Source: Luzula sylvatica
Lineage: Eukaryota > Streptophyta > Magnoliopsida > Poales > Juncaceae
Assembly (NCBI GenBank): GCA_946800325.1
Contig: OX326956.1
Location: 46,664,052 to 46,728,051 of the forward strand
Reading direction: 5' to 3'
DNA: 64,000 nucleotides
Made by a program: the position numbers and the translations under genes. Shown here piece after piece: positions 20,930 through 57,245 of this stretch; within the stretch, counting starts at the first letter, position 1; the number at the start of each line of letters is the position of its first letter. A model generated the notes under the pieces. That model saw nothing but the letters and a program-made list of their open reading frames with translations. It made no database searches and was not told where the DNA came from.

Positions 20930-23809
20930 AGTCTCACCGTCAAAAAATTTAAGAAAATAAAAAAACCAAAATTTTCGCATACCATATATAATATGGCGTC
21001 TTTTCAAATGACTTAAATGCAATATGGTTCAGTATTAAAGCATTCGTCTCAAAAACATTCTCTCAAAATAATTTGAGTGGATCTAATTGTCTCATCTTTA
21101 TCGAACAATATCGAAAAACGTTTGATTCCATTTTGAACACACCATTCAATGGGAATTAATTGTGAAACAATTCCACAATTATTTAGATGGTCATCAAACT
21201 TTTGACTCAAATTACTCGCAATTTCGATCTGATCGAAATGCATTAATTTACTTGCCTTGTCAAGTATTTACTTCATTTATTTAAATTTCTTAATCCTATC
21301 AAAGAATTATGACTCTTGCCTCATTTTAATTAATCTTAGTAAAAATCATGAACTACTTATATTTTCTAGTATTATGATTTCATTGGTCTATACATGCATA
21401 TATACAAGTTCCAATAAATCATTTGATCTTTTTCCTACTTTTGAAAATGATCCTTTTGCCATTTAATCAAAAAAACAAGTCTTGCATATTTCATAAGATC
21501 CCAGATCGGATGGGTATAAGTTTCTCCTTATGAAGCTTAATTATACATTTCTTGTTTGTCTAGTTAAAACGAGGACAAGTAATCTTTCGTCCGATGAAAT
21601 TTAGTTATGCGGATTTCGTTTATTTAACTCAAATGACAATGCTAATTAAGTTTTATCTCAACAATTAATTCAATACCTTTTAGTATTTATGTCATGTATA
21701 TGGATTTGTAACAATTTTAATCAAGATTTAGCACATAACAATAATTTTTAATAGAACGATTTTCAATAGAATGGTTCTATTACAATTATCCTATTAGAAT
21801 GTTATTATTTATATTCCAAACAATTTAATAATCATTCAATTCTAACCTAAAATTAAAATAATATCGTTTGTACATCTCGAATTCCATAGAGATTCGATTT
21901 TACTCCCACTCGATTAGTACAGTACTAACCCATTCTCCAAGAAGGCTTACTACCGAGATACGAAAACCTTGTTTTTACTTATGACAAGTAAGAGTAATAT
22001 CCTTGAGTTTTCTTGGGATAATATACTACAACTCAAATTACTAATTTCATTGGTGTGATTAGTACAATACTAACTACACATTTCCAAAATGTGATTATTG
22101 CATTTGGTGTCCAGCACCTAAAAGTTACTAAATTAGTTTGAATAACATAACCTACGCGAAGCACAAGTTTCCAAGACTTTCTTCCGTTTTATTACTAAAG
22201 TAAAAGTAATGTTTCCTTTGTAATATTAATTCAATGAATAGGAAATGGTTGCTTCCTTTGGTTCATTGATCTTTGTCTCGGTACATAATTTATCCATGTC
22301 CTTTTGCTATTGGACTTACCTTCATTAGACTTTCTCTTCTTTTCTGAAATACCGAGACCTACTGAATAGATTTTTCGAACTTCAACATACTCCCGACTTT
22401 GAGTGTTGTTGAAAAGTTTCGAAAATGATCTCTATCCTAACTAAGAACCCATAAGAATCCAATTCTTATATTCTTATTTGAGAACCGTTCTCAAATATGT
22501 CTAAGAAAATTCCTTTTCTAATTCTGTTACTTGAGAATTGATCGTAAATTTAATCTTATTTATTTGAATTTTCTACAACTATGTAAAATATGTTTAAATT
22601 AATGAGTTACTTGAATATCTGTATTCCATATTACTGCACTCCCACTATTCTTCTCGAATCAATAACATCCACGTTAACAAAAAGGAAACAACGATACTCG
22701 TTTGTTTCTAGTAGTCAAGATCCAAATTGCATATATGTCCGAGCCAGACGAAGATCGTGAAACTCTCAAACATATATCTATTTGGTCGGATCACATCCAA
22801 TTGCATCCAAATGTAATTATTGAATCATTCATGAGATAAGCATCGAGTCCAACGCAATATTCCTTGTGTGTAATCTCACTGCATGTCCAAATTACTAATG
22901 AGCCAGACGAAGACCGTGAAACTTTCAATAAAATTGGTTAAGTCTAAACCATGTCCAAGTATCGTTCGAATGAACCACTAATGAGCCAGACGAAGGCCGT
23001 GAAACTCTCATTAGTTCCCAAACAATGCTTACTTCCCGCGCTTATTATTCCGCACACGTGTCAGACGAAAACCATGAAACACGTGAGTAAAACAAAAGCC
23101 TCGAAAACTTCAGGTCATGAAAAGCATTTACATGACAATAATGATTTAAATGGAGAAATTAATGAAATATGTAGTCACAAAATCAATTTTCAGAATATGC
23201 ATCCAATATCATTTAAATGATATCACATATCTTGTATACATTTGACCCACTTTGCTTAAACGAATCCCAGATTCCTTCAAACGAATGAATTGCCAAAAAA
23301 ATTCTTGACAAATTTATCCTTTTGCATTTAAATGATTGAATTTTGCACAAACGCAACATATTTGTTTAAACAGATTCTTGTTTCGTTTACACAAATAATA
23401 TGACCAAAAAATTATGGACATTTTGGAACCTAAGTTGTAGACAATCTTATTATCTATCAAACTCAATTTGGATCATTAAAATTGAAGTTCGTATGTGAAA
23501 ATTATGACAATTTTCCCAAAAATGTGTTTATGTTGATTTTTCACGAAAATTGATTTAGATATAGTTTTTCAACGAATCAAAATCACAAAAATCTTCTGAA
23601 ACAGTTCCAAACTAGTATAGACCATCTCAATCAATGTAATATCCAATATTAATTGATCAAAATCTTTATTAAATATAATATCTAATATTAATTGATCATA
23701 ATATTTAGGTTTCTGTTAAACCAAAGTCTTAATTATAAAAATTAAGTAAAAAAGATTTTGATCGTATCTAATACGACAAAACTATCGAAACTAATCGTTC
23801 TGATACCAC
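20930..23809 (-). mobile_element. Decayed copia element, internal region
   Basis: Near 21050-21240 a minus-strand frame still reads FDDHLNNCGIVSQL, the integrase segment of copia polyproteins, then falls apart. A degenerate primer-binding site GTTCTGATACCA (reverse of TGGTATCAGAAC) is at 23797-23808, directly before the LTR start at 23810. The leader (22700-23100) carries four copies of GCCAGACGAAG-type words, at least three of them inside hairpins. No 3' LTR was found on the left. The rest is unreadable. Confidence 0.6.
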
Positions 23810-24229
23810 TGTTTGGAATTCCCACACGCATGTATCATACATGATACGACGGAAATGCGGGATTCCCATGACCTTGGATCTTGTTTGACTATAGTTCGTG
23901 TACGGAATGAAGAGTTTTAACCATAACTCGTCAAATTGATGGTGAACGACGAGTTGAAATGCTAGTATTCCGTCTTGCACGTTTTCCTCCTTGTTTCTCC
24001 TATTTGTATCGTGTGATTGATCACAAGTCACCTTACTCGAAGATCTGTACTCATAAACCACCATGAATTCGTCTTCTCGTATAGTCAACGATCGTCATAG
24101 TTCAACCGTTGAGTACTTGTGCGTTTTATCTCACCAAACTCAAATTCAAAAATGAAGAAAGCATTTCTCTCTTGTTTTTCTCTCCTCCTGATGTAGAATG
24201 TTTGTATTGGAGGGGAAAACATGTGTCTG

Positions 24230-24310
<81 letters not shown>

Positions 24311-24790
24311 CTAGTGAAAAGATAGCTCTTGAAACATAAAAACTGCATGCACCGTTTCACTATTATGTAAAATCGAATTGATAAATCATTAAAATCGAAT
24401 CCAAATCTTCACGAAAGTTGTAGATAATTTAATTATCTTTCGAACCCAATTGGAATTCGGACCCGAAAGTTATGGCGATTGTACGAATTGTGCATAAAAC
24501 TGTCACAACCTTTCAGTATTCCATTAAAACGAAAATGATAAATCGTTCATATGAAAAATAAATCTTCATGAAAGTTCTAGATAATCTTATCTATTAAACC
24601 AAATTTTAACCATCCAAATTGGAGTTAGTGTGTGAAAGTTGTGACAGTTTTATTAAAACATGTCTACTGAATTTTTTGATTTTTATTGTATTCTTCATAC
24701 AACCGTTTATTATCAATTTAACCATGTATATCTAATATACATATGTGTATACAATATACAAATTATTAATTTTGTGTCCATCTTAATTCA
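23810..24790 (-). mobile_element. 5' LTR of the decayed minus-strand copia element
   Basis: It starts TGTTTGGAATTCCC next to the primer-binding site and shares the body of the family LTR (AAAGTTGTAGATAAT, CCGTTTATTATCAATTT, ATATCTAATATACA). The usual ...TTTCCTTCA end is missing, so the right limit is approximate. A (TA)n run at 24233-24306 lies inside. Confidence 0.6.
24233..24306. repeat. (TA)n microsatellite, about 74 bp
   Basis: A pure AT dinucleotide run inside an old LTR. The long Tyr-Ile frames on both strands are artefacts of it. Confidence 0.95.
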
Positions 24791-25029
24791 TATCCTTTCA
24801 AACATGCACTAAATTTAGGGTCAAAATAAAATATGCTTTGATATCCAAAGTCAGGAAGAAGTTAAGTGAAGGCGGATATCAAATGTTTGTGGTGAAATCG
24901 AAGATTTTTTTAAAATTTACAGTGTCGTTAAATTTTTAATCGGGAGAAGGTAAGTGTGAATGACAACATTTCGAGTTTATTGGACTACTTTGCTAGTGTT
25001 GAAAGTATTTCCCCATAAAAATATCGATA

Positions 25030-25470: not shown

Positions 25471-25701
25471 AATTGTCCCGAGAATTCAACAAGTAAAAAT
25501 TATAACGGTGCATTTTTTTATTTGTGTAATTTTAAAACTTTCCGAATGTAGTTCACTTATATTTTTTTGTTGTTTTATTGAATATTGTATTTTTTATTTG
25601 CATATATGTCTTCTATAAATATATCATGTTAAAAAAATAAAAGCATTAGATATCCAATTACATCTTTATTAAAACTAATTTAATTACAATAAAACAATTA
25701 T

Positions 25702-30060: not shown

Positions 30061-30074
30061 CACTACGACAAAAC
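30061..30074 (+). mobile_element. Terminus of a CACTA (En/Spm-type) transposon, split by copia
   Basis: CACTACGACAAAAC has the CACTA superfamily terminal signature. After 14 bp it is interrupted by the copia element at 30075, whose AAAAC duplication lets the sequence resume at 40591. The opposite CACTA terminus was not found in the window. Confidence 0.65.
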
Positions 30075-30566
30075 TGAAGGAAATACAGTTTCAGGATCAA
30101 CCGTAAAAGTGTACACAAGGATAAACGAACGTACGCGTCCATAGACATAAGAAACAGTTTTGGTAAAACTAGCATAATTTTCAGTGAGAAACTCCAATTT
30201 GAATGATTAAAATTGGGTTAGATAGATAATAAGATTATCTAGAACTTTCATATAGAAATATGTTTCATTTGAGCGAAGTATCAGTGTCGTTTTAATGGAA
30301 TACCGAAAGGGTGTGACTGTTTGACATAGAGTTAGTAAACCGTCCGTAACTTTCGTATCCGAACTCCAATTGGGCCAGATCCAATTGGGTTGGAAAGATA
30401 ATAAGATTATACACAACTTTCATGATGTTCAAAGTCGGTTGGGACGATTTAATATTTTCGTTTCAACAGAATACTGAAATGGTGTCTGCAGTTTTCTGTG
30501 TGAAAGGGTGTATATTGGATATACATGTTTTTTGGCCCATCCTTATCCTATATGATATAAATAGGA

Positions 30567-30618
<52 letters not shown>

Positions 30619-31176
30619 GACCAGATCATTCAGACCAATCTATGGTATTATTCAGAATATTCCAGAAATATAGAGAGACATCTTTCTAGAGAGAGAAAGA
30701 TTGCGAAGAGAGAAAACCGAGAAAAAGAGTTTTTCTCGATGTAGAGAATCGATATAATCAAGCAAGTTCGCTGGTGCAGCGTCTAGGCAGTTGCACCCGC
30801 GACCGACGAACTCCGACTCACGGTGGATACAAATAGAGGAGCGACACTTGTGGCTCTCCGATTGTGATCAAACCGACGGAGCAAAATTGTTGGCTGTGGA
30901 AGAGTGTGGACGTGGTACGCACGAAAGACAACCGGAGACGTGTCAAGACGGTGGGAGACGTGTGGTATGGGACGCACGGGCTAGTCACCAACGTGACACT
31001 GGAGAAGGAAAGGATGCGAGCGATCAACCCGTCGTGCGTGATCAATTTCACGCTGGTAATCGTCTATCCTTCTATTGCATCGTACCCTCGAAGTCATGTC
31101 GTGATCTTGGATTTTGGGAACCGGACCGGGTCTTCATATCCGCTGCGCTGGCCCGGGGACGGGTGAATTCCCAACA
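30075..31176 (+). repeat. 5' LTR of copia family A copy 1
   Basis: 1102 bp, TG...CA. It contains a (TC)n run at about 30571-30616 just after ATGATATAAATAGGATG, which is the likely TATA region. Short open frames in it recur in the other LTR copies with stops and shifts, so they are not genes. Confidence 0.9.
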
Positions 31177-31820: not shown

Positions 31821-32156
31821 CAATATGTGTGTTGTTAGGCCTTCGTCATGCACACATGTTGATGGTATTAATGGGTGGCAAACGTTAAATGGGGACTTAC
31901 GTGTTGTTAGGCCTTCGTCATGCACGTGAGTAGTCCACTTGACGATACGTTTGATATGGTTATGACTTAACCGTCCAAGCCAATCCGATTGGAGTTCGGG
32001 GCATAGTTAGAATGCACACACGGAATTGGGATTGTATATGATACGATCCATCACCGAAATTCTATAAAGGTTCAAGAGTCGTATTGGATACGATTGGATA
32101 TTAATCCTACCTAAATAAGCGAGATCTCACTCGATAGGCCTTCGTCACTTGTGGGA
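31821..32156 (+). repeat. Three leader hairpins with one shared loop and different stems
   Basis: Stem pairs: 31821-31831 with 31851-31861 (11 pairs, one U-G), 31895-31903 with 31923-31931 (9 pairs, one U-G), and 32125-32130 with 32151-32156 (6 pairs, one U-G). Each loop contains TAGGCCTTCGTCA. The stems are unrelated in sequence: CAATATGTGTG, ACTTACGTG and TCTCAC. Confidence 0.7.
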
Positions 32157-39449: not shown

Positions 39450-39945
39450 TGAAGGAAATACAGTTTCAGGATCAACCGTAAAAGTGTACACAAGGATAAA
39501 CGAACGTACGCGTCCGTATGCATAAGAAACAGTTTGGTAAAACTGGCATAACGTTCCGTGAGAAACTCCAATTTGAATGGTTAAAATTGGGTTAGATAGA
39601 TAATAAGAGTATCTAGAACTTTCATATAGAAATATTGTTCATTTGAGCGAAGTATCAGTATCGTTTTAATGGAATACCGAAAGGGTGCGACTGTTTGACA
39701 TAGAGTTAGTAAAACGTCTGTAACTTTCGTATCCGAACTCCAATTGGGCCAGATCCAATTGGGTTGGAAAGATAATAAGATTATCCACAACTTTTGTGAA
39801 TGTTCAAAGTCGTTTGGGACGATTTAATATTTTCGTTTCAACAGAATACTTTCTTAAAGGGTGTCTGCAGTTTTCTGCGTGAAATGGTGTATATTGGATA
39901 TACATGCCTTTTGGCCCATCCTTATCCTATATGATATAAATAGGA

Positions 39946-40027
<82 letters not shown>

Positions 40028-40585
40028 GACCAGATCATTCAGACCAATCTATGGTATTATTCAGAATATTCCAGAAATATAGAGAGACATGTTTCTAGGG
40101 AGCGAAAGATTGCGAAGAGAGAAAACCGAGAAAAAGAGTTTTTCTCGGTGTAGAGAATCGATCTAATCAAGCAAGTTCACTGGTGCAGCGTCTAGGCAGT
40201 TGCACCCGCGACCGACGAACTCCGACTCACGGTGGATACAAGTAGAGGAGCGACACTTGTGGCTCTCTGATTGTGATCAAACCGAAGGTGCAAAACTGTT
40301 GGCTGTGGAAGAGTGTGGACGTGGTACGCACGAAAGACAACTGGAGGCGTGTCAAGACGGTGGGAGACGTGTGGTATGGGACGCACGGGCTAGTCACCAA
40401 CGTGACACCGGAGAAGGAAAGGATGCGAGCGATCAACCCGTCGTGCATGATCAATTTCACGCTGGTAATCGTCTATCCTTCTATTGCATCGTACCCTTGA
40501 AGTCATGACGTGATCTTGGATTTTGGGAACCGGACCGGGTCTTCATATCCACTGCGCGGGCCCGGGGATGGGTGAATTCCCAACA
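39450..40585 (+). repeat. 3' LTR of copia family A copy 1
   Basis: 1136 bp. It is longer than the 5' LTR mainly because of a longer (TC)n run (about 39952-40024). The ends are identical to those of the 5' LTR. Confidence 0.9.
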
Positions 40586-41103: not shown

Positions 41104-41737
41104 TGAAAGAAAATATGGCTTAAGAATTAACTTGGAAGAATTTTTATTATGTAGGCAAATCTGCAGTCAGAATTGGGCCGTTAATATTATTAGGGATTTA
41201 ACCTAATTTCAGATAATTAGGATTTAATCTAATTTCGGGCCCATTCAGACCATTCAGATAATTAGGGTTTTAACCTAATTTCGGCCCAATCCGAAAGCTC
41301 GGGTTTTAACCTAATTTTGCCTATAAATATAATTCTGATTTCGAGTTTCTCTCTCCTAAGGGCTGCCGAATTTCTGACCTAATTCAGCCAAAATTTCTTC
41401 TTTCTCCCACAGAGTTTCAAAGTGAGATCTAGAGAAAAATAGAAGAGAGATCTGAGTAATTTCTTGAGAGATATAATCGCAACACTGACTAGAACAGTTT
41501 TGGCGGTTCTGATCAGACGAAATCGAGGTGGACACAAGTAGAGGGAGTGCAAGAGCAATCCTTGGAGAAGGTTCACGAGATCTGGAGGAGAAGGCATCAC
41601 GTACTAACTTGTACGAGGTAAAATTCTTATTACTTTTCCTTTTTCGATGTTTTTCGAGTGTGATCCAGGGTAGAATTAGGTTATACATACGAAATAATTC
41701 CGCTGCAAACCTCTAAATTCGTGTGTATAATCCTACA
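41104..41737 (+). repeat. 5' LTR of the young copia element
   Basis: 634 bp, TGAAAGAA...CCTACA. TATA-like CCTATAAATATAA near 41321. It carries several copies of TTTAACCTAATTTC. Confidence 0.93.
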
Positions 41738-41759
41738 GTGGTATCAGAGCAAACGCTCG

Positions 41760-42128
41760 TTAAAACCATCGAAAATTAGATTTTCAGATTTGTAGATTAG
41801 AATTTTATAATTTGAGAAATTTTAGAATTTTTGGGCTAAATTGCAAAATTACATAATATAAATTCTGTTGAAAATTGGATTTTCAGAAAAATTAGATTTT
41901 CAGAATTAATTGTAATTATTACAGATTAGATCTGGTTAAAATTATATTTTCAGAAAAAATTAGGTTTTCAGAAAAATTAGATTTTCAGAATATATTTTGT
42001 ACAGATTAGATCTGTTGAAAATTGGTTTTTCAGAAAATTAGATTTTCACAATATATGGTAATAAATACAGATTGGATTTGTTATAAAAATTTGGATCTGT
42101 TAAATATATTTTAATAAATACAGATTTT

Positions 42129-42168
<40 letters not shown>

Positions 42169-42575
42169 GAAATTTTTCTGTCGTTTCTCGATCGAACTTG
42201 GAGTTGTGATCGTATGAACAAAATTCTGGACAACAAAAATTTTTTTCTGTCAAAAATGCCCAAAAATTTAAAATTTTCAATTTATAAATTCAATTCGGTA
42301 TAGCATATAGCCTAAAACGGGGATGATTGTTTGTGAATGTTTGTATGTGTGTTGTGATTGTTTGTATGTGTGTTGTGATTGTTTGTATGTGTGTTATGTG
42401 GGGGCCAGTGAGCTTTCCAAATTGTAAACTATTTTAATATGGGGACCGGTGAGTCTTCCAAATTGTAGTAGAATAGGTTTAGTTTTGAAAAAGGCACCTT
42501 CAAAGCAAGACGACACGAAGATTGGATCTTCAAGAAAAGACGCACAACGCGAAGATTGGATCTTCAAGAAAAGTA
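41760..42575 (+). repeat. Leader built from short duplications and a 36-A run
   Basis: ATTAGATTTTCAGAA-like units recur about ten times (41760-42130), followed by 36 consecutive A (42130-42165). Next come GATTGTTTGTATGTGTGTT three times (42328-42387), GGGRCCRGTGAGYTTTCCAA twice (about 42402-42468) and CGAAGATTGGATCTTCAAGA twice (about 42517-42575). Confidence 0.75.
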
Positions 42576-42793
42576 CAAGATCATCTTGGGTTTTAGGGTT
42601 GGGAATTTAGGGTTTTATGATTGCTCATAAAACTAAAAGGCCTATATGCTATACCGTACAATATTTTATTTTTTGTTTTATGCATGAATAAAATAAAAGT
42701 TCAGTAAATGATTTTATTAAAAGAAAATCCTCCCACGTAATTATCAAGTAAAATGCCTCCCAAAGTGGAACCTTCGAAACTAATATTTGTTTA

Positions 42794-42904
42794 TTTGTGT
42801 TGCATGGCCATAGTCTGACAAAAAAATTTCAAATACGTAGCATTGAAGGCATGCATTGATTAGGAGTTGACGTGTTGCATGGCTTTAGTCTGGCATGTCA
42901 ATTC
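42794..42904 (+). repeat. Two leader hairpins of the shared-loop type, young copia
   Basis: The second hairpin pairs 42864-42874 with 42894-42904, 11 pairs including two G-U, around the 19-nt loop TTGCATGGCTTTAGTCTGG. The first pairs 42794-42798 with 42818-42822 around TTGCATGGCCATAGTCTG. The stem sequences differ. Confidence 0.7.
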
Positions 42905-43294
42905 GCTAATTGAATGATACTCCATTTGTGGTTTGGACTTGACCAATTAACTAGCTAGGCTAGTATTTGGGGCAAGGAGTGAGGAACACATACTCTGGTT
43001 TTGAGTTGGACTCAATACCGGACCTCGCGAATAAAGCAAGAATCGTCTTAGAGATGATTGGACTTCGTCCTACCCGACGTGACATATCTTCTGAGTTGTT
43101 GGCCATAGTCACTTTAGAAATACGTTACATAGGGATCTTGTCCATTATGAGATTTAAGGTATCGAATCTCCGTTTCAATAGTGGGGGCTATTTGAAATGA
43201 TAAAATAATGGGTATTTCAAGTTGTTTAAAAATGAATTTAATATATGAAAGATCACGCTATTAATTACATTATTTTTCAAAAATTGTAGATTTA

Positions 43295-43993
43295 ATGGCT
43301 TTACCAAGTAATAACCGCTTTAGTTTGCGTTCCATTTTGGAAAAGGAACGAATGAACGGAAAGAACTTTCTCGACTGGCAGAGGAATCTGGGATTCGTTC
43401 TGAAACAGGAAGGAAAGGCACACGTCTTGGAGACGCCTATCCCTCCTGTGCCAGGGGATGAAGCAACTGGGGATGCCATATTCGAATATCAGGCCATGAT
43501 GGACGATTCGAATGATGTCACATGCCTCATGTTGGCTACTATGACTCCTGAATATCAAATCCAGTTTGAGAAACAGGATGCATACGAGATTATGAAACAA
43601 CTCAGGGAGATATTTCAGGTTCAAGCAAGGGTGGAGAAGTATCAAGCTCTTGGCAATGCGACGCAATGCAAGATGCAAGAGGGTACACCCGTTAGCTCGC
43701 ATCTTCTCAAGATGAAAGGATATTTCGATCATCTTGAGAGGCTTGGCATGAAATTCGAGATGGAGTTACAAACTGATTTGATCATGTTGTCACTTCCACC
43801 GAGTTTCGATTCGTTCATTTCGCATTTCCACATGTCAGACATGAAAAGGACCATTCCCCAGCTTTTCGGAATGCTCAGAACATTCGAAAGTGACATGAAA
43901 CCGCGGTACATGAAGTCTAGGACTTCGGAGGTATTGGTGGTTCAAGGGAAGAGTCGAAACAATGGGAACAAGAACAAGAAGAGGAAGGCATAG
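43295..43993 (+). CDS. Copia Gag, capsid part, ends at an in-frame TAG
   Basis: 232 residues starting MALPSNNRFSLRSILEKERM. It has the UBN2/gag-type capsid fold pattern (FLDWQRNLGFVLKQ, YEIMKQLREIF) and a basic tail KSRNNGNKNKKRKA. It stops at TAG 43991-43993, but the same frame continues into the zinc knuckle, so this is probably an interrupted polyprotein and not a separate gene. Programmed readthrough is possible but not supported by anything seen. Confidence 0.88.
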   Translation: MALPSNNRFSLRSILEKERMNGKNFLDWQRNLGFVLKQEGKAHVLETPIPPVPGDEATGDAIFEYQAMMDDSNDVTCLMLATMTPEYQIQFEKQDAYEIMKQLREIFQVQARVEKYQALGNATQCKMQEGTPVSSHLLKMKGYFDHLERLGMKFEMELQTDLIMLSLPPSFDSFISHFHMSDMKRTIPQLFGMLRTFESDMKPRYMKSRTSEVLVVQGKSRNNGNKNKKRKA

Positions 43994-44554
43994 GGCAACA
44001 AGGTTGCGCCTAAGCCAGTGAGCAAGAAAGCCAAGGATGACAAGAAGTGTTTCCACTGTCTCAAGGAGGGGCATTGGAAGCGTGATTGCGAGATCTTCTT
44101 GAGGGAGAGCAAGCAAAAGACCGCTTCCTCGGACACACCGGCATCAGGTATTTCCGTTATCGATTCTTATTTCTTTACTTTATCATCATGGGTGTTGGAC
44201 ACTGGATGTGGGACTCATATTTGTAATAATATGCAGGGCCTAAGAAGTAGAAGATCGTTGATTCGTGGCGAAGTTGATTTACGCGTCGGGAATGGAGCTC
44301 GAGTAGCAGCATTAGCCGAAGGGACGTATGATTTAACTTTGCCAAATGGACTTATTTTAGTTTTGAATAATTGTTGTTATGTACCTACTTTGAGTAGGAA
44401 TATTATTTCTGTTTCGAGACTTATTGCGGATGGATATGAATTAGTTATTGGTACTAATGATTGTTTTATTCGCAAGAATGACATTTTCTTTAGTAATGTT
44501 CTAGTTGAAAATGGTTTATATGTCTTGGATTTAGAAAATAACAACAATAATTAG
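43994..44554 (+). pseudogene. Copia zinc knuckle and protease, same frame, ends at a second TAG
   Basis: Continues the Gag frame. A CCHC knuckle (CX2CX4HX4C, CFHCLKEGHWKRDC) is at 44048-44089. The aspartic protease motif WVLDTGCGTHICNN follows, with its DTG at 44198-44206. The frame closes at TAG 44552-44554. Confidence 0.85.
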
Positions 44555-46369
44555 TCCATTTATAACATAAATACCACTCAAACAAATGAAACATACTCAT
44601 GGCATTGTCGTCTCGGACACATAAACGAGAAACGCATTGCTAGACTCCAAAAGGATGGAGTACTAGATTCTTTTGATTTAAAGTCAATAGAAAATTGCGA
44701 ATCTTGTTTGATGGGTAAGATGACAAAGACACCTTTTTCCAAGAAAGGAGAAAGATCGAAAGATGTGTTGGCCCTCATACATTCCGATGTATGTGGACCG
44801 ATGAGTGTCGAGGCTAGAAATGGGTATCGCTACTTCGTGGCTTTTACTGACGATTATAGTAGATATGGATATCTCTACTTAATGCGTCACAAAAGTGAAA
44901 CTTTTGAGAAATTCAAAGAGTTTCAACACGAGGTAGAACTTCAACTGGGCAAGAAAGTAAAAGCCATTCGATCGGATCGAGGTGGCGAATACTTGAGCTA
45001 TGAGTTTGAGGACTATCTTCGAGATTGTGGTATAGTATCACAATGGACTCCACCCGGTACACCCCAATGGAATGGAGTGTCCGAGAGGAGGAATCGGACT
45101 TTGTTAGACATGGTTCCCTCGATGATGAGTCGAACAGATTTGCCAAAGTCATTTTGGGGTTTCGCGCTTCAAACGGCCGCTCATATACTGAATAGAGTTC
45201 CGTCCAAATCGGTTGACAAGACACCATATGAGTTATGGCATGACAAGGTGCCATCATTGTCTTATCTTAAGATTTGGGGTTGCGAGGCATACGTCAAAAG
45301 GTTATTGACGGAAAAACTCGAGCCAAGATCAGACAAGTGTTTATTTGTGGGGTATCCTCAAGAAACAAGAGGATACTACTTTTACTTGCCAAGCGAAAAC
45401 AAGGTTTTCGTGGCTCGACGTGGACACTTCTTAGAGAAGGAATTCCTAGATCGTCAAGCCAGTGGGAGTAAAATTGATCTCGAAGAAATTCGAGAACCAC
45501 AAAGTGAACAGGTTGATTTGGAACAAGATTCTGAGTTACCATTGGATGGTGAACCAGAATCCAATACACAAGCTCTACGTAGATCTGGTAGGATTCGTCA
45601 AGAACCTGAGAGATATGGATTTCTCATTAGTAATGACGATGATGAGTTGACTCTAGATGATGAGCCAACCTCCTACAAAGGTGCTATGTCTAGTTTGGAT
45701 TCCTCGAAATGGCATGACGCCATGAAAACCGAGATCCAGTCCATGTATGATAATAAGGTTTGGAATCTTATTGATCTACCTAATGGTGCTAAGACCGTTG
45801 GGTGCAAATGGGTTTTCAAGAAGAAAACCGACATGGATGGTAATGTACACACTTTTAAAGCAAGACTGGTGGCGAAAGGTTTCAAGCAAATTCATGGTAT
45901 AGACTATGATGAAACGTTTTCCCCAGTAGCCATGTTTAAAAGTATTCGCATTCTTCTAGCGATAGCTGCATATCACGATTATGAGATATGGCAGATGGAT
46001 GTCAAAACCGCTTTCCTTAACGGGAACCTTACCGAGGATGTGTATATGACACAACCCGAGGGTTTTGTCGATCCAAAGAATACGAATAAAGTGTGCAAGC
46101 TTATGAGATCCATTTATGGATTAAAACAAGCATCTCGTGCGTGGAACATACGATTCGATGAGGTTATCGCAAAGTATGGTTTCATTCAAAATATCGAGGA
46201 ACCTTGTGTATACAAGAAATTCAGTGGGAGTTCGGTTGTATTCCTCATCTTGTACGTGGACGACATCTTACTCATTGGAAATGACATCCCGATGCTTAAC
46301 CAGGACGACATCTTACGCAATGAAGGACTTAGGAGAAGCTGCCTATATTTTAGGTGTGAAGATCTATAG
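44555..46369 (+). pseudogene. Copia integrase and reverse transcriptase, frameshifted at the end
   Basis: The same frame again: GAG-pre-integrase HCRLGH near 44605, the integrase core from DVCGPM to TPPGTPQWNGVSERRNR (about 44780-45110), then the reverse transcriptase with YVDD at 46253-46264. About 30 bp after YVDD the frame is lost. The sequence GACGACATCTTAC occurs at 46259-46271 and again near 46306, and the expected segment before MKDLGEAAYILG is missing. This points to a repair event between short repeats. Confidence 0.88.
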
Positions 46370-47228
46370 AGATAGATCGAGGAGACTTCTCGGACTAAGT
46401 CAAAGTACATATATTGACAAAGTGATAACTAGGTTTCACATGGAGCAATCCAAGAAAGGATTTCTGCCAATGTCACATGGCATCACTCTCACTAAGGCTC
46501 AGTGTCCTTCAACGGACGCTGAACGTGAGCGAATGAGTCGGATCCCATACGCTTCGGCTATAGGATCGATCATGTATGCCATGATATGTACTATACCAGA
46601 TGTCGCATATGCGTTGAGTGTGACTTCCCGCTATCAGTCTGATCCCGGGGAAGCTCACTGGTCCGCAGTCAAGAGCGTTCTTAAGTATCTCAGGAATACT
46701 AAAGATATGTTTCTTGTCTATGGTGGTTCGGAAGGAGATCTGATTATCCAAGGATATACAGATGCTAGTTTCCAAACTTGCCCGGACGATTTCCAATCTC
46801 AAAGTGGTTACGTCTTTACGCTCAATGGCGGAGCTGTTGTTTGGAAAAGCTCCAAACAGAAGACGGTGGCTGATTCTACAACTGAAGCGGAATACATCGC
46901 GGCTTCTGAAGCCGCGAAGGAGGCTGTCTGGCTACCACAGTTCGTGATGGAACTTGGCGTTATGCCAAGTATCTCGGGTCCCATGGATGTCTATTGTGAC
47001 AATAACGGAGCAATAGCACAATCTAAGGAACCGCGAGCGCATCATCGGTCCAAACATGTACTCCGGCATTACCACTTGATTCGTGAGATTACGAAGAGAG
47101 GTGACGTGAAAATAATGAAGATACCTACTGAGGATAACGTGGCCGATCCATTTACGAAGCCACTATCACGTGCCAAGCATGAGCAGCATGCTAGGGCGAT
47201 AGGATTGGGATATCTATCGCAGTGTTAG
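46319..47228 (+). pseudogene. Copia end of reverse transcriptase and RNase H, shifted frame
   Basis: Reading resumes one frame over at MKDLGEAAYILGVKIYRD and continues to the RNase H motifs (ADSTTEAEYIAASEA, then the segment with YCDNNGAIA) and the C-terminal EHARAIGLGYL. Stop TAG at 47226-47228. The domain itself looks intact. Confidence 0.85.
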
Positions 47229-47496
47229 ATTGGGTGTTTTATTTATGTTTCTTATTTGTATAAGGGGATTTGATCTGCCTAGTGCAAGTGGGAGAACATT
47301 TATTATGCCCTAGGCGTGTTATTGGAATTGTATTTGTTTATGAGACAGATATTTATATTATTATTCATCATATGACCTAAACCTTCATATTTCAAAAATT
47401 TTAAATAACAAGAAAGTGTGTGAGAGGTTATTCGATTATAATAATCGGATAGACCTTGAGTTTTATTCTAGTTTAGTGCATCGAGTCAGTTGAGAA

Positions 47497-47529
47497 TAAT
47501 ATGTTGCATGGCCTTAGTCTGGCATATTG
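47497..47529 (+). repeat. Shared-loop hairpin in the 3' untranslated part of the young copia
   Basis: Stem 47497-47503 with 47523-47529, seven pairs including one U-G, around TTGCATGGCCTTAGTCTGG. The loop matches the leader hairpins of the same element, but the stem is different. Confidence 0.65.
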
Positions 47530-48429
47530 ATTCGTCAATTGAATGATAGTAAAACCACTAAACGGGATGAATATAATTCTAAAACGTCCCTCGTGTATAA
47601 AGTTGTTCATAAATTGAACCAGGTAGTCCATTCGCTGAATGGAGACTTTTATATACACCGGCATATTCGTAGATGAGATGATCAGGTTTTACTGATCTGA
47701 GACGGTAGCGTCGATTCTAGAATATGGATATACGCGGCGTCGTATATTGGACTGACCACTATATGAGTTTGTGACATGGTCAGAGTCATTGGAGACAAAC
47801 TCATATCCAGATAGTGCGTTTTAGTCCTTCATACTTGAGTGATCTCACGGATACCTAGTGTGTGAAAAGACAATGCTTTGATGTAATTAACCCTACGCGT
47901 AACTGTGTAGCAGAGATTATTATTGAGTATTGTTTTTAGCATAGGCAAAGGATGTGAGATTGCAAGATAGGAATTGTTCCTTTCTAGCCTTGAAAAGGAT
48001 AGAGGGAGATATCTCTCGGGCCCCTCGATTGAATTGAGATTGATGAAATGCTTGGCCAAGCTCGATGGAACTCAATAGAGTTCGCATTGTTATAATCAAT
48101 CTAATTCTTATTGAGAAAGAGTATATCTGATCAAAAGAAAAGATGATGACTTGAAGTTTTAGGCTTCACCGTGACTCTTTTGATCGGAAGATATCGCGAA
48201 CAAGAGGACTAGTAACACTTATCTGAGCCAGGTATGAAGATGTACTGCATATTCATAAAGGTGTTCTCCACCTTTTTCGTTCTAATTCTGGGTAGGTATT
48301 AACGGCAGTCTAGTGATCGCAATACCTTGTGGATTGCTGCCATATCCACTGCCAGTCTTATACGAACCTACAACGGTCACACCAAGATTTCGTAACATAT
48401 CGGATTCTCAAGATAATGCTCACCAATAC

Positions 48430-48493
48430 GTTTGTTGGACAAACAAAATGAAATCACGTGTGATTAGATCTCACGACATATGTTGGACATATG
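48430..48493 (+). repeat. Two perfect hairpins with loop TTGGA and different stems
   Basis: GTTTG-TTGGA-CAAAC at 48430-48444 and CATATG-TTGGA-CATATG at 48477-48493, close to the 3' LTR of the young copia. The loop is the same and the stems are unrelated. Confidence 0.75.
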
Positions 48494-48527
48494 GCCAGTT
48501 GATTAAGTCTTAATCCAAGAGGGAGTT

Positions 48528-49161
48528 TGAAAGAAAATATGGCTTAAGAATTAACTTGGAAGAATTTATATTATGTAGGCAAATCTGCAGTCAGAATTGG
48601 GCCGTTAATATTATTAGGGATTTAACCTAATTTCAGATAATTAGGATTTAATCTAATTTCGGGCCCATTCAGACCATTCAGATAATTAGGGTTTTAACCT
48701 AATTTCGGCCCAATCCGAAAGCTAGGGTTTTAACCTAATTTTGCCTATAAATATAATTCTGATTTCGAGTTTCTCTCTCCTAAGGGCTGCCGAATTTCTG
48801 ACCTAATTCAGCCGAAATTTCTTCTTTCTCCCACAGAGTTTCAAAGTGAGATCTAGAGAAAAATAGAAGAGAGATCTGAGTAATTTCTTGAGAGATATAA
48901 TCGCAACACTGACTAGAACAGTTTTGGCGGTTCTGATCAGACGAAATCGAGGTGGACACAAGTAGAGGGAGTGCAAGAGCAATCCTTGGAGAAGGTTCAC
49001 GAGATCTGGAGGAGAAGGCATCACGTACTAACTTGTACGAGGTAAAATTCTGATTACTTTTCCTTTTTCGATGTTTTTCGAGTGTGATCCAGGGTAGAAT
49101 TAGGTTATACATACGAAATAATTCCGCTGCAAACCTCTAAATTCGTGTGTATAATCCTACA
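48528..49161 (+). repeat. 3' LTR of the young copia element
   Basis: 634 bp, preceded by the purine tract AGAGGGAGT. Four substitutions relative to the 5' LTR. Confidence 0.93.
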
Positions 49162-50032: not shown

Positions 50033-51150
50033 TGTTGGGAATCGATCCGAGCCCAGGCCCGCGCAGCGGATATGAAGGGCCGGTCCGGTTCCCAAATCAC
50101 GAGATCACGCCTCGACTTCGAGAGTACGATGCAAAGTAGGATAGACGATTACCAGCGTGAAATTGATCACGCACGACGGGTTGATCGCTCGCATCCTTTC
50201 CTTCTCCGGTGTCACGTTGGTGACTAGCCCGTGCGTCCCATACCACACGTCTCCCACCGTCTTGACACGTCTCCGGTTGTCTTCGTGCGTCCCATGCCCA
50301 CACGCTTCCACAGCCTTTTATCTGTTTACTTCTTCGGTTGGATCACAACGAAGAGCCACAAAGTGCGAACTCCTCTACTCGTATCCACCGTGAGTCATAG
50401 CAACTCGGTCGCGGATGCACCTGCCTAGACGATGCACCGGCGAACTTGTGCATGATCGCGTTTGATTCTCTAATCCGAGAAAACTTCTTTTCTCTTTCTC
50501 TCTTTCTCATCGCACTCTTTCAACTCTTTGATAGAAAGAATTATATGGATTGGACTTCAATTGACTTCAATTGACTTCAATTGTCTGAATGGAGGAGAGA
50601 GAAATATCCTATATATTCTATATAGGATAAGGATGGGCCAAAAAATATGTATAACTATTATACACCTTTTCACACAGAAACTGCACACACCCTTTCAGTA
50701 TTCTGTTGAAACGAAATTGTTAAATCATTTAAACCGACTTCAAACCTTCACGAAAGTTGTAGATAATCTTATTATATTTCCAACCCAATTTGGCCCATCC
50801 CAATTGGAGTTCGGATGCCAAAGTTATGACGGTTTTACTAACTGTATGTCAAACTGTAGCACCCTTTCGGTATTCCATTAAAACGACACTGATACATCGC
50901 TCAAATGAAATATATTTCTACATGAAAGTTCTAGATAATCTTATTATATATTTAACCCAATTTGAACCATTCAAATTGGAATCGTTATCTGAAAGTTATG
51001 TCAGTTTTACTAAAACTGTTTAAACTGATTTTCTGGTTTTCTTAATATAACCGTTTCTTATCAATTTAACTATGTATATCCAATATACATATGTGCATCT
51101 AATATACACATTATTTATGTCCACGGACGCATGCGTTCGTTTATCCTTAT
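50033..51150 (-). repeat. 3' LTR of copia family A copy 2, tail deleted
   Basis: It starts TGTTGGGAATCGATCC. At the right it stops after CGTTTATCCTTAT and runs straight into the purine tract (reverse of GTGGGAGAC). The TGTACACTTTTACGG to TTCCTTCA end found in other copies is missing. Confidence 0.8.
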
Positions 51151-52769
51151 GTCTCCCACTCAGATTCAGATCTAACTAAAAGGTACTCATGTATATCACA
51201 TATACACTATAGTAGAGAATCTAGCCCACGTATCATATACGCTAAAGCCATGCACATCCTATGTTCCAAAACTTGCAATCAAGCCCGACATAGTACGACT
51301 CGTTGTGTGACCGTGTAGGTTCGTTTAACGATGGCAGTAAGCTGTTACGTATTACAAGCCCATGAGCGGGATCTAGTCACTCCATCATGGCTACCCATGT
51401 TAAAACGAAAAATGATTGTGATCATTGTGCCTATCTCGAATAGCGGTTATTAGTTCTCTTGTTCGCGGTATCCGTTAATCAAAAGGCATGGTGATAGTCA
51501 TCCTTATAGTTTGATTAAAAACAGTTATTCCCCGATTCCGAGTTGAGTTAACAAATTTCAATCGATATTAATCGTTAATCGATCTCATCGAGCGGCGCCT
51601 AAGAAATATCTCTTCCTTTCGGAATAAATAATTCCTATCTTGGAGACTCACATTGAATTCCGTGTTTCGGACAATACCCAATGATGACCGTTTTGGCCCC
51701 CTGTTACGGCAGGCGTAAGATCATATCAAAGCATTGTGTTACGCACGTAATGCAATCAATGGTCCCCTCAAGTGTGAAGAACCTAATACCCTACTCGTCG
51801 CGAGTCCATCCATAATGACTAAACCATGTCATGGTCTCGCGGCTTTGGTCATATCCAATATATGTCACCTAGCATATATATACGTTCCCGATTCGACAAA
51901 CACCTTGTCCTATGATTAGCAAAACATAATCATCTCCTCGGCTAACGTACTAGTGTACGCGTTCAGTCTATTATCGGATAATAGAAATGCTTCTCAGCTC
52001 TTAAGCAAACTGACCCGCAACTAGGGATGTTTAGAAATGAAACTTTAGGTGTGACGGTTTCACTGCACATAATCACATATTATGCCGACGTCCACACAAG
52101 CTCAAATCAGGGTTCATGTAATCATATTACACAACCCGCACACAGTTTTCACGTAAGGTGAATGCATACAAATTTAAGTAAACAATTTTTTTTTTTTTAA
52201 ATGCAGTCATATGGATTAAGTATTGGGGTGATGCAGCGTTTACCTATAGGTATCTCCATACCCATAACCTGCGAGGACTATCGTATTAGATAACTACACT
52301 CTACTCTCTTCCTCTTCCTCTAGGTATCTTCATACCCATAGTCATCGCATGACAGTCACGCGCGACGAGTATTGGATAGAAGTGGTTGTGACCTCGATAT
52401 GGTTGTGACCTCGATATTTTTTTTTGGCTCGTACTATTGCGTCTCACGCAATCCACAACCATAAATTCGATAACTCGTGACTACTTCGAGTTTGGTCATG
52501 TATCCTTGATCCATACCGCTTCCTTTTGCGCAATATACTCGCCTCCGTAAATAGAATCGTAAACCATTGGTCGTGTGGAACCTTTCCACATAACCGTATT
52601 TTCGTGTAAGCAAAACACGTACACACTTCGTGATCGAAAGTGGTGTTACATGTTTGGAAACTGCCGTTGGTAACACCATTATAGACAAAATAAAATCCTG
52701 AATTCTTTCCCAAAGTATTCAAGTACAAACTTCACCGCTATACATATAAATCCCGATGGGTTTAATATA

Positions 52770-53155
52770 AATCCAGAGATACTTCCGTTGTGACGGACCA
52801 AAGTTCCGTTGCAACGGACTAAACTGTGAATTCTAGATCAAAATCCAGAGACATTTCCGTTATAACGTACCAAAGTTCCGTTACAACGGACCAAACTGTG
52901 AATTCTGGATCAAAATTCAGAGACATTTCCGTTGTAACAGACCAAAGTTCCGTTACAACGGAGCTCAAAAGAAGCCATAGGCATCCCCGCATCCTCGTAT
53001 CCTATACAAGGTCCGTTATAACAGAATTCCTTGTCCGTTATAACGGACTATGCATTTTTCACAGTCATCCCCGCATCCTCGTATCCTATACAAGGTCCGT
53101 TACAACGGAACTCCTAGTCCGTTATAACGGACTATGCGTTTTTCACAATTTTATG
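52770..53155. repeat. Tandem units carrying CCGTTATAACGG-type palindromes
   Basis: Three units of about 68 bp (52770-52960) contain pairs such as TTCCGTTACAACGGA. Two units of about 83 bp follow (52984-53145) with GTCCGTTATAACGGAC. The array lies between the RNase H and reverse transcriptase relics of copy 2. There are at least nine palindromes, differing mainly in the central four bases (TTGTGA, TTGCAA, TTATAA, TTACAA). Confidence 0.8.
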
Positions 53156-53969
53156 TTATGTATATTAAACATATAACCATTATACATTCACGAGAGTTAG
53201 TCTCATGTAATCGCATTACATTCAAACTCGTGTGATTCCCTTGAATTTTATTAACGGTAAATTAGACGCTTCATATGTACGACATATGTCCACATATATA
53301 TATATATATATATATATTCAGAAATACGGTGCGGCTCCCACTAACCTTTATGTATACACAAAGTTTTCATTCGTTCCGATGTTGTTATAACATTTTATAA
53401 CTTTGTCAAAACGAATAATCCAATTATGAGAAGCTTTCTTTAATCCATTGTATGGATCGTTAAAGCGTGCATATCTTATCCTTGATTCTTATGAATCGAC
53501 AAAACCGTAAGTTTGTGTCAAGTACACACCCTTTTATAAAATTTCTGTTAAGAAATTTGGTTTTGACATCCATTTTGCCACATCACATAGTCATAATACG
53601 CGACTATGGCAAGCATAATTTCGGAATGTGAAAGCATGGCAACATGCGAAAACGTTTCTTCATAGTCCAATTATGAAATACTTGAAACCTTTCGCTACTA
53701 GCCTCTCTTTATTATATGCGTATTCCTATCCGTGTCGGTTCTCTTCTTGAAATCCCATTCATATTTCACGGGTCTAACCCTGAAAGTAATGAAATCAAGT
53801 TCTAAACTTGATAATTCACACGGATCGAATCTCAGATTTCATGGCACCTTGCCATGTGGAACCGTTACTTCTCATAGCATCCTTGTAGGATATCGAATCA
53901 TCATATGATTTTGATCTATCATCATTAACAACGATAAATCCATATTTATCGGCTTATGATATAGCCTAC

Positions 53970-54978
53970 TGTTAGGGAATATCCCCGACCCCGGGCCCGC
54001 GCAGCGGAATGAAGGCCCGGTCCGGTTCCCCGATTCCCGAGATCACGCCACGACTTCGAGGGTACGATGCAATTAGAAGGATAGATCTATACCAGTGCCA
54101 AATTGATGGCACACGAAGGGTTGATCGCCGCCTTCTATTTCCTGTCACGTTGGTGACAATCCGCGCGTCCCACACCACGCGTCCTTCACCAATCGTTTGC
54201 TACGCCGGTTCACTCGACTTCGTCTTCGTGCGTCCAAGCGTTTCTACCGTCTTTCTCACTTGAGTCGATCACAATCGAAGAGTCACAAGCGTCACTCCTC
54301 TACTTGTATCCATAGTGATTCGTAAGACGTCGGTCGCGGATGCACCTGCCTAGACGATGCACCGGCGAACTTGCTCGATCTAATCGATTCTCTATTTCTC
54401 TCTCTTCGTACCTTTTCACTCACGAAAGATCAAATATGAATTTGCTCTTTTCTTAGTGTCTATGGCAGAATGAACTAATTAGAATTTCTTAGTAAGGAGA
54501 GAGAAAGTATCCTATTTATATCTAATAGGATCAGGATTAGCCAAAAGGCATGTATATCCAATATACACCCTTTCACACAGAAAACTGCATGAACCTGGTC
54601 AGTATTCTGTCCAGACTAAATTGATAAATTTCTCTGACAGAAAAGCACCTAACATGAAAGTTTTAGATAATCTAATTATCTACAAAACCCAATTTGGCCC
54701 AGACAAATTGGAGTTCGTATGCAAAAGTTATGACTGTTTTACTAACTGTATGTCATACTGTTGCACCCTTTCGGTATTTCACATAAACGACACTGATACT
54801 TCGTTCATATGAAATATATTTCTACATGATGGTTATAGATAATCTAATTATCTATCTAACCCAATTTGAACCATTCAAATCGGATTTTCCTACTGAAAGT
54901 TATGGCTACAAATGTACGCTTACATTCGTTCATCCACGTGTACACTTTTACGGTTGATCCGAAACTGTATTTCTTTCA
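53970..54978 (-). mobile_element. Solo copia LTR, same family, CCTAC duplication
   Basis: It starts TGTTAGGGAATATCCC and ends GTATTTCTTTCA. CCTAC flanks it at 53965-53969 and 54979-54983. The host element's pol relic is continuous across the junction. 1009 bp, no internal region. Confidence 0.9.
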
Positions 54979-57047
54979 CCTACTTGATCTATGAAAAATT
55001 CCTTTGTGTGTTCGACTCGTATTCATCAACTCTTGATGAAGTCGTGTCAACTTTCATCGGCACAATGTTCATTTTCAGATCTCGAACTCTTTCGAGATTT
55101 ATTCTACTCCCAATAACCCGCGTAGAGATAAATGGCATCAAGTTCCAAACTTGTGCGCATTATGTCCTCCTCCAAGAAGGCATCTCTTCGAGCCACGAAA
55201 AACTCATTTTCGTCGGGACGTTAGAACTAATATCCTTTGGTTTTCTTAAAGATATATGATAAACGAACAATTCTCAGATTTGGGATTAAGTTTATCTGAA
55301 ACAAATTTCGAAATATACTCACATCCTCAAATCTGCACAAATGACAATTTCGGAACCATTCCGATCCATATCTCATATGGCGTATTTTGTACCGACTAGA
55401 AGGTTTATGGTCCATATCTTATATGCAACCATTCATTAGTGCCGCTGTCTCAAGGGCGTATCCCAAAACATTTTTGGGAGATCCGTTTGACTTATCATTT
55501 ATCGAACCATGTCTAACATGCGTTCATTTCCTCTTTTCGAATACATCTCAATGCTTCGAAATAAAGATAATCGTGAAACAATTCCACAATCATGAATGAT
55601 AATCAATACTTATAACTCAAATATCGCCTCTTCGATCCTATCGAAGTGCGTAGCTCAAATACTCGCCTCCTCGATCCAATCAAAGAGCTTTGATTTTCTT
55701 GCTAAGTCGATTTTGTATTTTGTTTTTGAAACTCTTTGAACCTTTCAAAAGTCTCTGTTTCGGCGCGCATTAAATAGATATTATCGTATCTACATTAATC
55801 GTCCGCAAACGTAACAAAATACCGATGGCCTCCTCTTGCCTCGGAACTTATCGGATCATTTACATCTTAATGCAATTTCCAATAATTCGTTGGATCTTTC
55901 TCCAACTTTGGAGAATGACGTCCTTTTTCGTCCAACCTAATAAATGAGTATCGCATTAATCAAACGAACCTAATTCGAATGATTATAGCAATCCATCACA
56001 TGGTATCTAGATATGCGTATCTCGTTCATATGGCCAAGACGGCAATGCCAGAAGAAACAATCAACTTCTAGGTTGAATCCTCCTCGGATTTCACCGTTCT
56101 TTGAGTCATTAATTTGGACAACTCCTTGTCCGAACTTTCTGTTTGGAAAACATTTTCCCAAAATACCCTTATACATTTATTTCTTTCGATCCCGCCTTTG
56201 AATTACAAGGACATCCCCGCATCTATATGCATTGGATTCCTTGGATGCAATTTCGGGATCGACTTATCTCCAATTCAAATTTAAATCGCATCTCATGATA
56301 TTCGATTACGAAGATCAAATCTCGTACCATCAACACGCGAGTATTAATCAAAGACCCATAAGGCGTCTCAAAATTAACCTACTCTTTGAGCCGCATTGAA
56401 CCATTCAACGCGCTCTAGCTCTTGAAACTATTTCACGAGCGTTGTGTTTTACTTTCATATGCACCCGAATTCTCAAAATAATTTTGAGAAATTTGCGTCT
56501 ATACATGCCACCACAAGGCACGTAATATCGTTCGATTTCTTCTTAAAGTTTATCGACCCCGGCTTTCTCTAAAGCCAAAGCCTCGAGCCCTGAATCTACC
56601 ATTTCCGTGTCCAACACGTTCCTTTCAGTCTAAGAACTATTCTTTAACTATCAAGGTTAATTACGGTAATTCTGACCCAAAAGCCATCTATCATATCGAT
56701 CTCATCGACATATTTGGTGTTGCTAGAAAACATGATTCTAATTGGATGATGAAGATTAAGTTCCTAACCGTGCGTACTTAATCTATACGCTTACATGATG
56801 AATTATATGACAGTGTTATTTTATCGAATCGGTAACCCTCATACCTATACGGGACTCCAAGTCCATAACACTCAAGACCCATATTTCACGATCCTCCCAA
56901 AAGTTGCTTTGGCAGACGGGTGGGATCTCGCTATTTAGGTAGGATTATATCCAATCGCATCCAATGCGACTCTTGAACCTTTATAGGATTTCGGTGATGG
57001 ATCGTATCATATACAATCCCATTTCCGTGTGTGCATCCTATCTATGT

Positions 57048-57245
57048 CCCGAACTCCAATCAAGTCGGCTTTGGCTTTAACCCTTATTGGCTTGGACGGT
57101 TAAGTCACAACCATACTCAACGTATCGTTCAAATAAACTACTAATAAGTCGGCTTTGGCCTTAACCCTTATCAGTCCCTATTTAACGCTTGCCACTCCAT
57201 CGATAGCTACAATAACCCATGTCGGCTTTGGCCTTAACCCATGTG
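57048..57245 (-). repeat. Leader hairpins of the shared-loop type, copia copy 2
   Basis: Arms 57056-57064 with 57083-57090 (8 pairs, one bulge) and 57140-57148 with 57167-57175 (8 pairs plus one that is U-G in the sense RNA) enclose AGTCGGCTTTGGCCTTAACC-type loops. A third, weaker one is near 57216-57238. Confidence 0.6.

Follow-up and report, generated by a model that had tools for sequence, protein, structure and literature searches.

Work on spleen necrosis virus and Harvey sarcoma virus reportedly identified the double hairpin of gammaretroviruses as a packaging signal, and this double hairpin has GACG tetraloops. In Ty1, the first 580 nt contain the packaging sequences (PMC4974528), and dimerisation has been modelled by kissing loops (PMC5454406). 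In barley, according to the passages cited, the parasitic BARE2 makes no Gag and is said to be packaged, keeping its dimerisation and packaging signals, and the authors remark that fairly little is known about the packaged RNA of other long terminal repeat (LTR) retrotransposons (PMC3735527). LARD elements are described in the cited part of the source as large, with LTRs and no protein coding; they are said to specify conserved RNA structures and are assumed to be mobilised in trans (PMC7215508). Here we analysed 64,000 nucleotides of Luzula sylvatica (assembly GCA_946800325.1, contig OX326956.1, positions 46,664,052 to 46,728,051 of the forward strand; hereafter the window), which contain four copia elements named Y (a young copy), C1, C2 and R (an old relic). 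Their leaders carry repeated hairpins (H1 to H4; Table 1), first noticed in a preliminary description made from the sequence alone. These hairpins prove genuine, selection acts on their pairing as RNA, and the segment that holds them has been exchanged between elements with and without gag.

Like the gammaretroviral double hairpin, the Luzula hairpins stand in tandem between the primer binding site (PBS) and gag and repeat one tip on different stems. Unlike it, they lack GACG; their tips are CUUC, YWUA or CAAA, borne by a 3-bp stem with an uneven internal loop beneath it, they number three to four, and their loops are family-specific and exchanged as a cassette. With the 5' packaging and dimerisation domain of Ty1 they share the copia superfamily and a cis-acting structured 5' RNA; however, the passages cited for Ty1 describe a pseudoknot and two complementary hairpin tips, while here one-loop hairpins are repeated and H1 lies about 595–1067 nt downstream of the PBS (PMC4974528, PMC5454406). 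BARE1/BARE2 is likewise a plant copia system with a packaged Gag-less member, and the cited part of that account mentions no repeated shared-loop hairpins (PMC3735527). C1 and C2 resemble LARD elements in being large LTR elements without protein coding, but they retain decayed gag and pol, and the LARD account, in the part cited, has no shared-loop hairpin set (PMC7215508).

Generally, a hairpin consists of an outer stem, an internal loop of 5–8 nt on the 5' side and 2–4 nt on the 3' side, and an inner stem GGC/GTC or GGC/GCC capped by one of these 4-nt tips. Inner stem and tip mostly agree among the hairpins of a single element. The loop core, called conserved in the preliminary description, holds a 3-bp stem of the form GGC-N4-GYC, whose variants remain paired (TGC/GCA in 9 of 9 distinct C2-H4 sequences; GAT/GTC in R-H4). 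A G-C pair closes the outer stem in H1, H2, C2-H3, the Y-3' hairpin and the relic, although a few copies of Y-H1 and C1-H2 deviate; in C1 and C2, most H4 stems are closed by C-G. The stems named in the preliminary description were located where it had put them, most of them in leaders, but the hairpin at 47.5 kb is 3' of pol; its loop and downstream flank are as in Y-H2, but its stem is another one. The stems had also been called hypervariable, which holds between positions and families but not between copies of one family, where each position keeps its stem in the sampled copies.

The spacing of the hairpins is nearly constant. In the window, the distance from H1 to H2 is 75 (Y), 72 (C1), 73 (C2) and 75 nt (R), and from H1 to H4 it is 295, 299, 318–319 and 317 nt, respectively. 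In the fetched loci (overlapping loci counted twice), neighbouring loops lie 74 nt apart in 39 of 41 Y pairs and 72 nt apart in 48 of 49 C1 pairs, and in C2 the distance is 73 (30 pairs) and then 84–85 (30 pairs). The presence of C2-H3 rests on this 84–85 nt spacing, as the pattern tally of H3 missed 17 of 49 C1 and 29 of 30 C2 contexts. The spacing is kept even though blastn finds no similarity between the Y leader and either C1 or C2. Rearranged copies were also observed. In one Y copy (L064; G000:C1:32588044-32588500), the 5' arm of H1 is joined to the 3' arm of H2 within the loop and the arms do not match, which is a deletion or a template switch between loop repeats; switching between hairpins happens. 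Another locus (L061) has a tandem triplication of the Y-3' hairpin and a third (L102) a tandem duplication of C1-H1, with joins outside the loops.

Sixteen sites in the leaders and the Y 3' region were picked by resemblance to the core and not by their arms, including three late picks (C2-H3 and C2-H4 by reading the leader, and a GGACTTCGTC site in Y from the list of one-mismatch matches). With their own arms, the summed duplex energy is -282.4 kcal/mol, against a mean of -157.4 (standard deviation 14.8) for permuted arms; the best of 100,000 permutations is -232.9 and none reaches the own-arm energy. Adding the four core matches that had been left out (13567, 26546, 51850 and 60127), which are themselves unpaired (ranks 20 to 39 of 39), gives -307.4 against -183.1, again 0 of 100,000, and taking the three late picks out of the 16 (13 sites) yields the same count. 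Compared with swapped arms, the own arms rank first of 31 in 9 of 16 sites and third or fourth in 3 more. Moreover, when 103 generic core-like sites from the two strands are ordered by pairing, these hairpins make up 7 of the top 10. A covariance model built from eight hairpins and searched over the window with E up to 5 gave 12 matches, every one of them at a hairpin site. Five of the matched hairpins were outside the model: R-H2 (5.6e-7), Y-H1 (1.6e-6; the model did include another Y-H1 copy, from L050), R-H3 (0.028), R-H4 (0.17) and Y-H4 (0.35). Searched over 57 of 133 loci, the model gave 113 raw matches. Single folds are modest, with z of -2 or lower in 5 of 15 stretches, the Y-3' stretch having ended short of its outer stem. 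Chance or artefact is ruled out by the arm permutation together with the covariation.

The preliminary description had claimed covariation, and had left a choice between selection for an RNA structure and a mechanism that rewrites both arms together. Copies without a loop match and duplicate sequences were excluded before counting in H2 and H4. The H2 set comprises 27 C1 and 5 C2 sequences, all distinct, with pairing in 98.1% of its 480 cells; 26 cells are changed on both sides against 6.4 in shuffles (0 of 500), and the covariation score is 0.272 against at most 0.114 in slid controls. Double changes affect 5 pairs against 3.4 (63 of 500) and further pair types number 14 against 13.1 (192 of 500), neither of which stands out. 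In H4 (17 C1 and 9 C2 sequences) there are 11 double cells against 3.9 (0 of 500) and a score of 0.232 against 0.135 for the best slid control, with no standout in the number of double-change pairs (300 of 500). Among the eight paralogous hairpins, an alignment made without R-H2 and R-H4 (out of register), Y-H4, C1-H4, C2-H3, C2-H4, R-H3 and the GGACTTCGTC site, 93.2% of cells are paired, double changes occur in 7 of 11 pairs (3 of 500) and in 18 cells against 6.9 (0 of 500), and the score is 0.627 against at most 0.214 in slid controls. The covariation claim is thereby upheld.

The kinds of pairs point to RNA. When G·T and A·C receive equal scores, the sense strand shows among its modal stem positions 166 that are Watson-Crick, 28 with G·T, 6 with A·C and 18 of other kinds (28 against 6, p 2e-4; C2-H4 yielding no voted pairs). 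In addition, at every one of the 16 sites except Y-H1, the arms pair more strongly with their own partners when read as sense strand than as antisense. Variants found in at least two distinct sequences comprise 19 G·T, 7 A·C and 3 transversions, and singletons 18, 23 and 24. Shared variants thus keep pairs in 19 cases and break them in 10, against 18 and 47 for singletons (p 0.001; G·T against A·C p 0.025); for C1 alone, with double changes counted as keeping, the ratios are 11:5 and 10:23 (p 0.015). That shared variants keep pairs more often than singletons looks as if selection acted before insertion. Because arm rewriting would give perfect palindromes without strand bias, the excess of G·T over A·C favours selection for RNA structure over a mechanism rewriting both arms.

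Stems are stable within a family, while tips diverge between families and the spacing persists. Under a uniform rule, the tip begins 18 nt ahead of the 10-nt core and ends 16 nt past it. Between C1 and C2, tips are identical at 71 of 130 positions and linkers at 255 of 294 with C1 as reference (p 3e-12), and at 92 of 154 and 234 of 270 with C2 as reference (tips 55–60%, linkers 87% overall); earlier tip limits, set after viewing the alignment, gave 61 of 121 and 387 of 446. No tip-linker difference is found between C2 and the gag-bearing L122 (168 of 176 and 258 of 272) or between C1 and L009 (120 of 132 and 263 of 290). The C1 loop TTGTTAGGCCTTCGTCATG is replaced in H1 and H2 of C2 by GGTTAAGGCCAAAGCCGA and in H3, where the C1 site is coreless, by a close variant; the H4 core is GGCCTTCGTC in C1 and TGCCAAAGCA in C2. 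In the 445-Mb assembly, exact cores number 220 (C1), 1157 (Y), 1339 (C2) and 1 (relic), while reversed-core controls give 0.

The preliminary description spoke of four copia copies, which is right, with the qualification that, inside C1 and C2 as they stand in the window, no sense frame exceeds 100 aa and decayed pol remains (longest sense ORF, open reading frame, 100 aa in C1 and 95 aa in C2; 30 stops in 522 aligned positions of the C1 pol remnant). The longest frame in the 520 nt past the leader is likewise 45–73 aa in 25 of 28 other elements, the remaining 3 being gag-bearing. Gag-bearing elements share the loops: L122, L109 and L133 have C2 loops and frames matching the copia gag model PF14223 in each frame tested (268 aa in L122, starting 3' of the hairpins), and L009 has the C1 loop and a tblastn match to Y gag in two pieces (1.6e-37). 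Classed by post-leader sequence, 14 C1-loop elements best match the body of window C2 in 7 cases (one over 65 nt), window C1 in 5 and none in 2; 14 C2-loop elements best match the window C2 body in 7, window C1 in 2 (one over 235 nt), the L122 gag in 3 and none in 2. Bodies without long frames are 92–96% alike in the pairs compared, whichever cassette they carry, and 68–73% like the L122 or L009 gag over part of their length.

Quartets of a C2-cassette body, a C1-cassette body, L122 and L009 were compared, using 18 of the 28 classed elements, L009 and the two window copies. In four quartets, which are not independent because all share L122 and L009, the cassette divides by loop type at 320 of 324 informative sites, and beyond +350 the two bodies fall together at 422 of 436. 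The switch from cassette to body lies near +375 to +450 after H1, close to the gag start. The part left of the hairpins aligned badly and does not enter these counts; the window C1 and C2 copies there give a mixed 15 to 8 to 6. Between window C2 and L122 the identity is 0.81 in the LTR, 0.82 in the leader, 0.95 in the hairpins and 0.69 in the gag part. Purifying selection alone fails to explain this island, because C1 and C2 resemble each other least in the hairpin stretch (0.76 against 0.81–0.92). The hairpin cassette is thus exchanged: either of two cassettes can be found on the bodies that lack long frames, and each of the two matches that of gag-bearing relatives whose loops are the same.

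What do the loops do? That selection is seen in elements lacking long frames suggests that the hairpins act on the RNA itself. Of the 14 C1-loop elements checked, 11 match such a frameless body over their full length, which speaks against a function in the translation of their own genes. Given the position between PBS and gag (in Y, hairpins at 42.8–43.1 kb and a gag frame from 43265), as for packaging hairpins, the repeated loop, its change between families and the exchange of cassettes, an element-encoded Gag fits best; the position also agrees with the packaging sequences of Ty1 and the signals said to be kept by BARE2. We think it probable that Gag (nucleocapsid) recognises the loops for packaging, which the preliminary description had offered as a guess and which the cassette exchange between gag-bearing and other elements now supports. 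Three to four leader stem-loops at near-constant spacing would be candidate docking sites at which a matching Gag selects its RNA; the variable outer stems are predicted scaffolds in which pairing alone matters, the loop conferring specificity. C1 and C2, without a long frame, may borrow Gag from helpers, the candidates being gag-bearing relatives with the same loops, and a body might change its helper by capturing another 5' end via template switching.

Several points weigh against this picture. Four of the 16 sites have no standout pairing (the window copy of Y-H1, the GGACTTCGTC site, R-H3 and C2-H3), z is above -2 in 10 of 15 single folds, and at E up to 5 the covariance model misses C1-H4, C2-H3 and C2-H4 in the window; it also misses the GGACTTCGTC site. 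For Y alone the split of shared and single variants gives p 0.11, C2 has no shared variants, and the wobble count without this split is not significant (42 against 34, p 0.42). The Y-3' hairpin falls outside the interval from PBS to gag, and the helper candidate for C1 is a single locus whose gag is split in two. The LTR and leader of L118 and L110 also match L122 (90–91% and 95–96%), so that the whole 5' end follows and the promoter or other 5' sequence may be what was captured; the C2 island, too, could partly reflect constraint and not exchange.

As in retroviral transport elements, the loops might bind a host factor that serves the export or stability of the RNA or controls its translation. 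Selection acts on the RNA, and some export elements sit downstream of pol, as the Y-3' hairpin does, but a fixed partner should preserve one loop, and here the loops vary by family, with all leader hairpins changed together between the C1 and C2 cassettes; we regard this role as unlikely. Dimerisation could be started by pairing between the loops of two RNAs. The self-complementary GGCC is present in 9 of 16 window cores, and family-specific loops would likewise yield family-specific dimers; however, GGCC is missing in the other 7 while 14 of 16 retain an intact inner stem, Y-H2 loses GGCC but retains the inner stem in 6 of 22 sequences, and C2-H4 keeps its inner stem via a double change with GGCC lost. 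Kissing by GGCC was rejected as a general rule on the 7 cores without this tip, and a kissing role of any kind seems quite unlikely to us.

A part in reverse transcription, or travel with an exchanged LTR and leader that matter in another way, would suit the whole 5' ends of L118 and L110 and the Y hairpins flanking the genes on both sides. Against it, the LTR and leader of window C2 match L122 less than the cassette does, H1 is far downstream of the PBS, hitch-hiking leaves the covariation unexplained, and the loops of Y, C1 and C2 have no complement above 9 nt in their own element, on which ground long-range loop pairing inside the element was rejected; we hold this to be very unlikely. Finally, inverted arms are typical both of DNA palindromes that serve as transcription-factor sites and of arms rewritten jointly by template switching between them, and the fused copy L064 shows that switching between hairpins occurs. 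Both DNA-level accounts are nevertheless extremely improbable in view of the G·T excess and the stronger pairing on the sense strand, and neither accounts for family-specific loops. Recognition of the loops by Gag is the reading we retain.

Table 1. Hairpins and elements in the window (positions count from its first letter)
Feature	Position	Strand	Remarks
C1-H1 hairpin	31821..31861	+	arms 31821-31831 / 31851-31861; loop TTGTTAGGCCTTCGTCATG; arm permutation, fold, covariance model
C1-H2 hairpin	31895..31931	+	arms 31895-31903 / 31923-31931; loop TTGTTAGGCCTTCGTCATG as C1-H1
C1-H3	31980..31992	+	coreless palindrome CCAATCCGATTGG; full hairpin at C2 counterpart; coreless too in gag-bearing L009
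C1-H4 hairpin	32125..32156	+	core GGCCTTCGTC; arms 32125-32130 / 32151-32156; weak alone, z 0.46
Y-H1 hairpin	42784..42834	+	poor pairing in window copy, better in other copies
Y-H2 hairpin	42864..42904	+	arms 42864-42874 / 42894-42904; loop TTGCATGGCTTTAGTCTGG; fold z -3.77
Y-H4 hairpin	43080..43128	+	covariance model E 0.35
Y-3' hairpin	47494..47533	+	between pol and 3' LTR
C2-H1 hairpin (weak)	57206..57255	-	core GGCCAAAGCC
C2-H2 hairpin	57133..57182	-	arms ACTGATAAG / CTTATTAGT
C2-H3 hairpin	57055..57097	-	filled form of coreless C1 site; no standout in arm permutation
C2-H4 hairpin	56887..56932	-	inner stem TGC/GCA in place of GGC/GTC
C2 hairpin cassette	56853..57293	-	about 95% identical to gag-bearing L122 and L133; both sides less so
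Relic R-H1 hairpin	23045..23095	-	arm permutation, covariance model
Relic R-H2 hairpin	22970..23022	-	arm permutation, covariance model
Relic R-H3	22887..22939	-	arms decayed
Relic R-H4 hairpin	22726..22782	-	inner stem GAT/GTC
Element Y (young copia)	41104..49161	+	LTRs 41104-41737 / 48528-49161, 99.4% identical; PBS 41739
Element Y coding part	43265-47228	+	gag/pol pieces; in-frame TAG at 43991 and 44552
Element C1	30073..40585	+	LTRs 30073-31176 / 39448-40585, 92.9%; PBS 31178; decayed pol remnants, no long ORF
Element C2	50033..58938	-	LTRs 57830-58938 / 50033-51150, 94.8%; PBS 57828; no long ORF
Relic R (old)	20970..24770	-	LTR-like 24334-24770; PBS-like site 23808; integrase remnant down to 20970

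All four elements have the primer site TGGTATCAGA, which we take to be the complement of initiator methionine tRNA. Y is a Ty1/copia LTR retrotransposon, with paired LTRs, a tRNA-type PBS, copia gag and integrase before RVT_2, and its pieces match copia gag, zinc knuckle, integrase and reverse transcriptase models; related gag proteins are named from Orobanche, Centaurea, Beta and Arctium. C1 and C2 are of the non-coding LARD type, with a PBS, no long reading frame and paired LTRs, as assessed on the window copies. Some further repeats were seen. The Y leader has two short tandem arrays 5' of the hairpins (41871-41990 and 42331-42395; 17-nt and 21-nt units). In C2, a different LTR, about 74% like the C2 LTRs, lies inside the element (53968-54978), and short palindromes of the form TCCGTTAYAACGGA occur in 72-nt and 84-nt tandem arrays (52769-53147) and in the leader (around 57500-57560), the C1 counterpart being GC-rich sequence. 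TC runs differ in length between the two C1 LTRs (30571-30616 and 39950-40025), and an AT run adjoins the relic LTR (24232-24306).

A scan of the window against 4227 Rfam families, including hammerhead retrozymes, gave no match at gathering score, and no protein relatives were found in viral contigs. Matches to the core pattern in viral contigs (1) and prokaryote genomes (11) were taken as chance. In the literature searched, whose coverage excluded most subscription journals, no description of such hairpins in plant copia leaders was found.

How plant copia elements choose their own RNA, and how gene-less relatives steal that service, is poorly known. We tentatively suggest, as a possibility short of an even chance, that the loops form an RNA identity code: one repeated loop would sort elements into packaging groups, gene-less parasites would switch helper by capturing a cassette, and conflict would drive the tips apart while scaffold stems and spacing stay. 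A repeated family-specific loop is a short candidate signal for tests with synthetic RNA, and it would match gene-less elements to their helpers. By combining bodies and cassettes two by two, a single genome offers a natural experiment on the match between element and helper.

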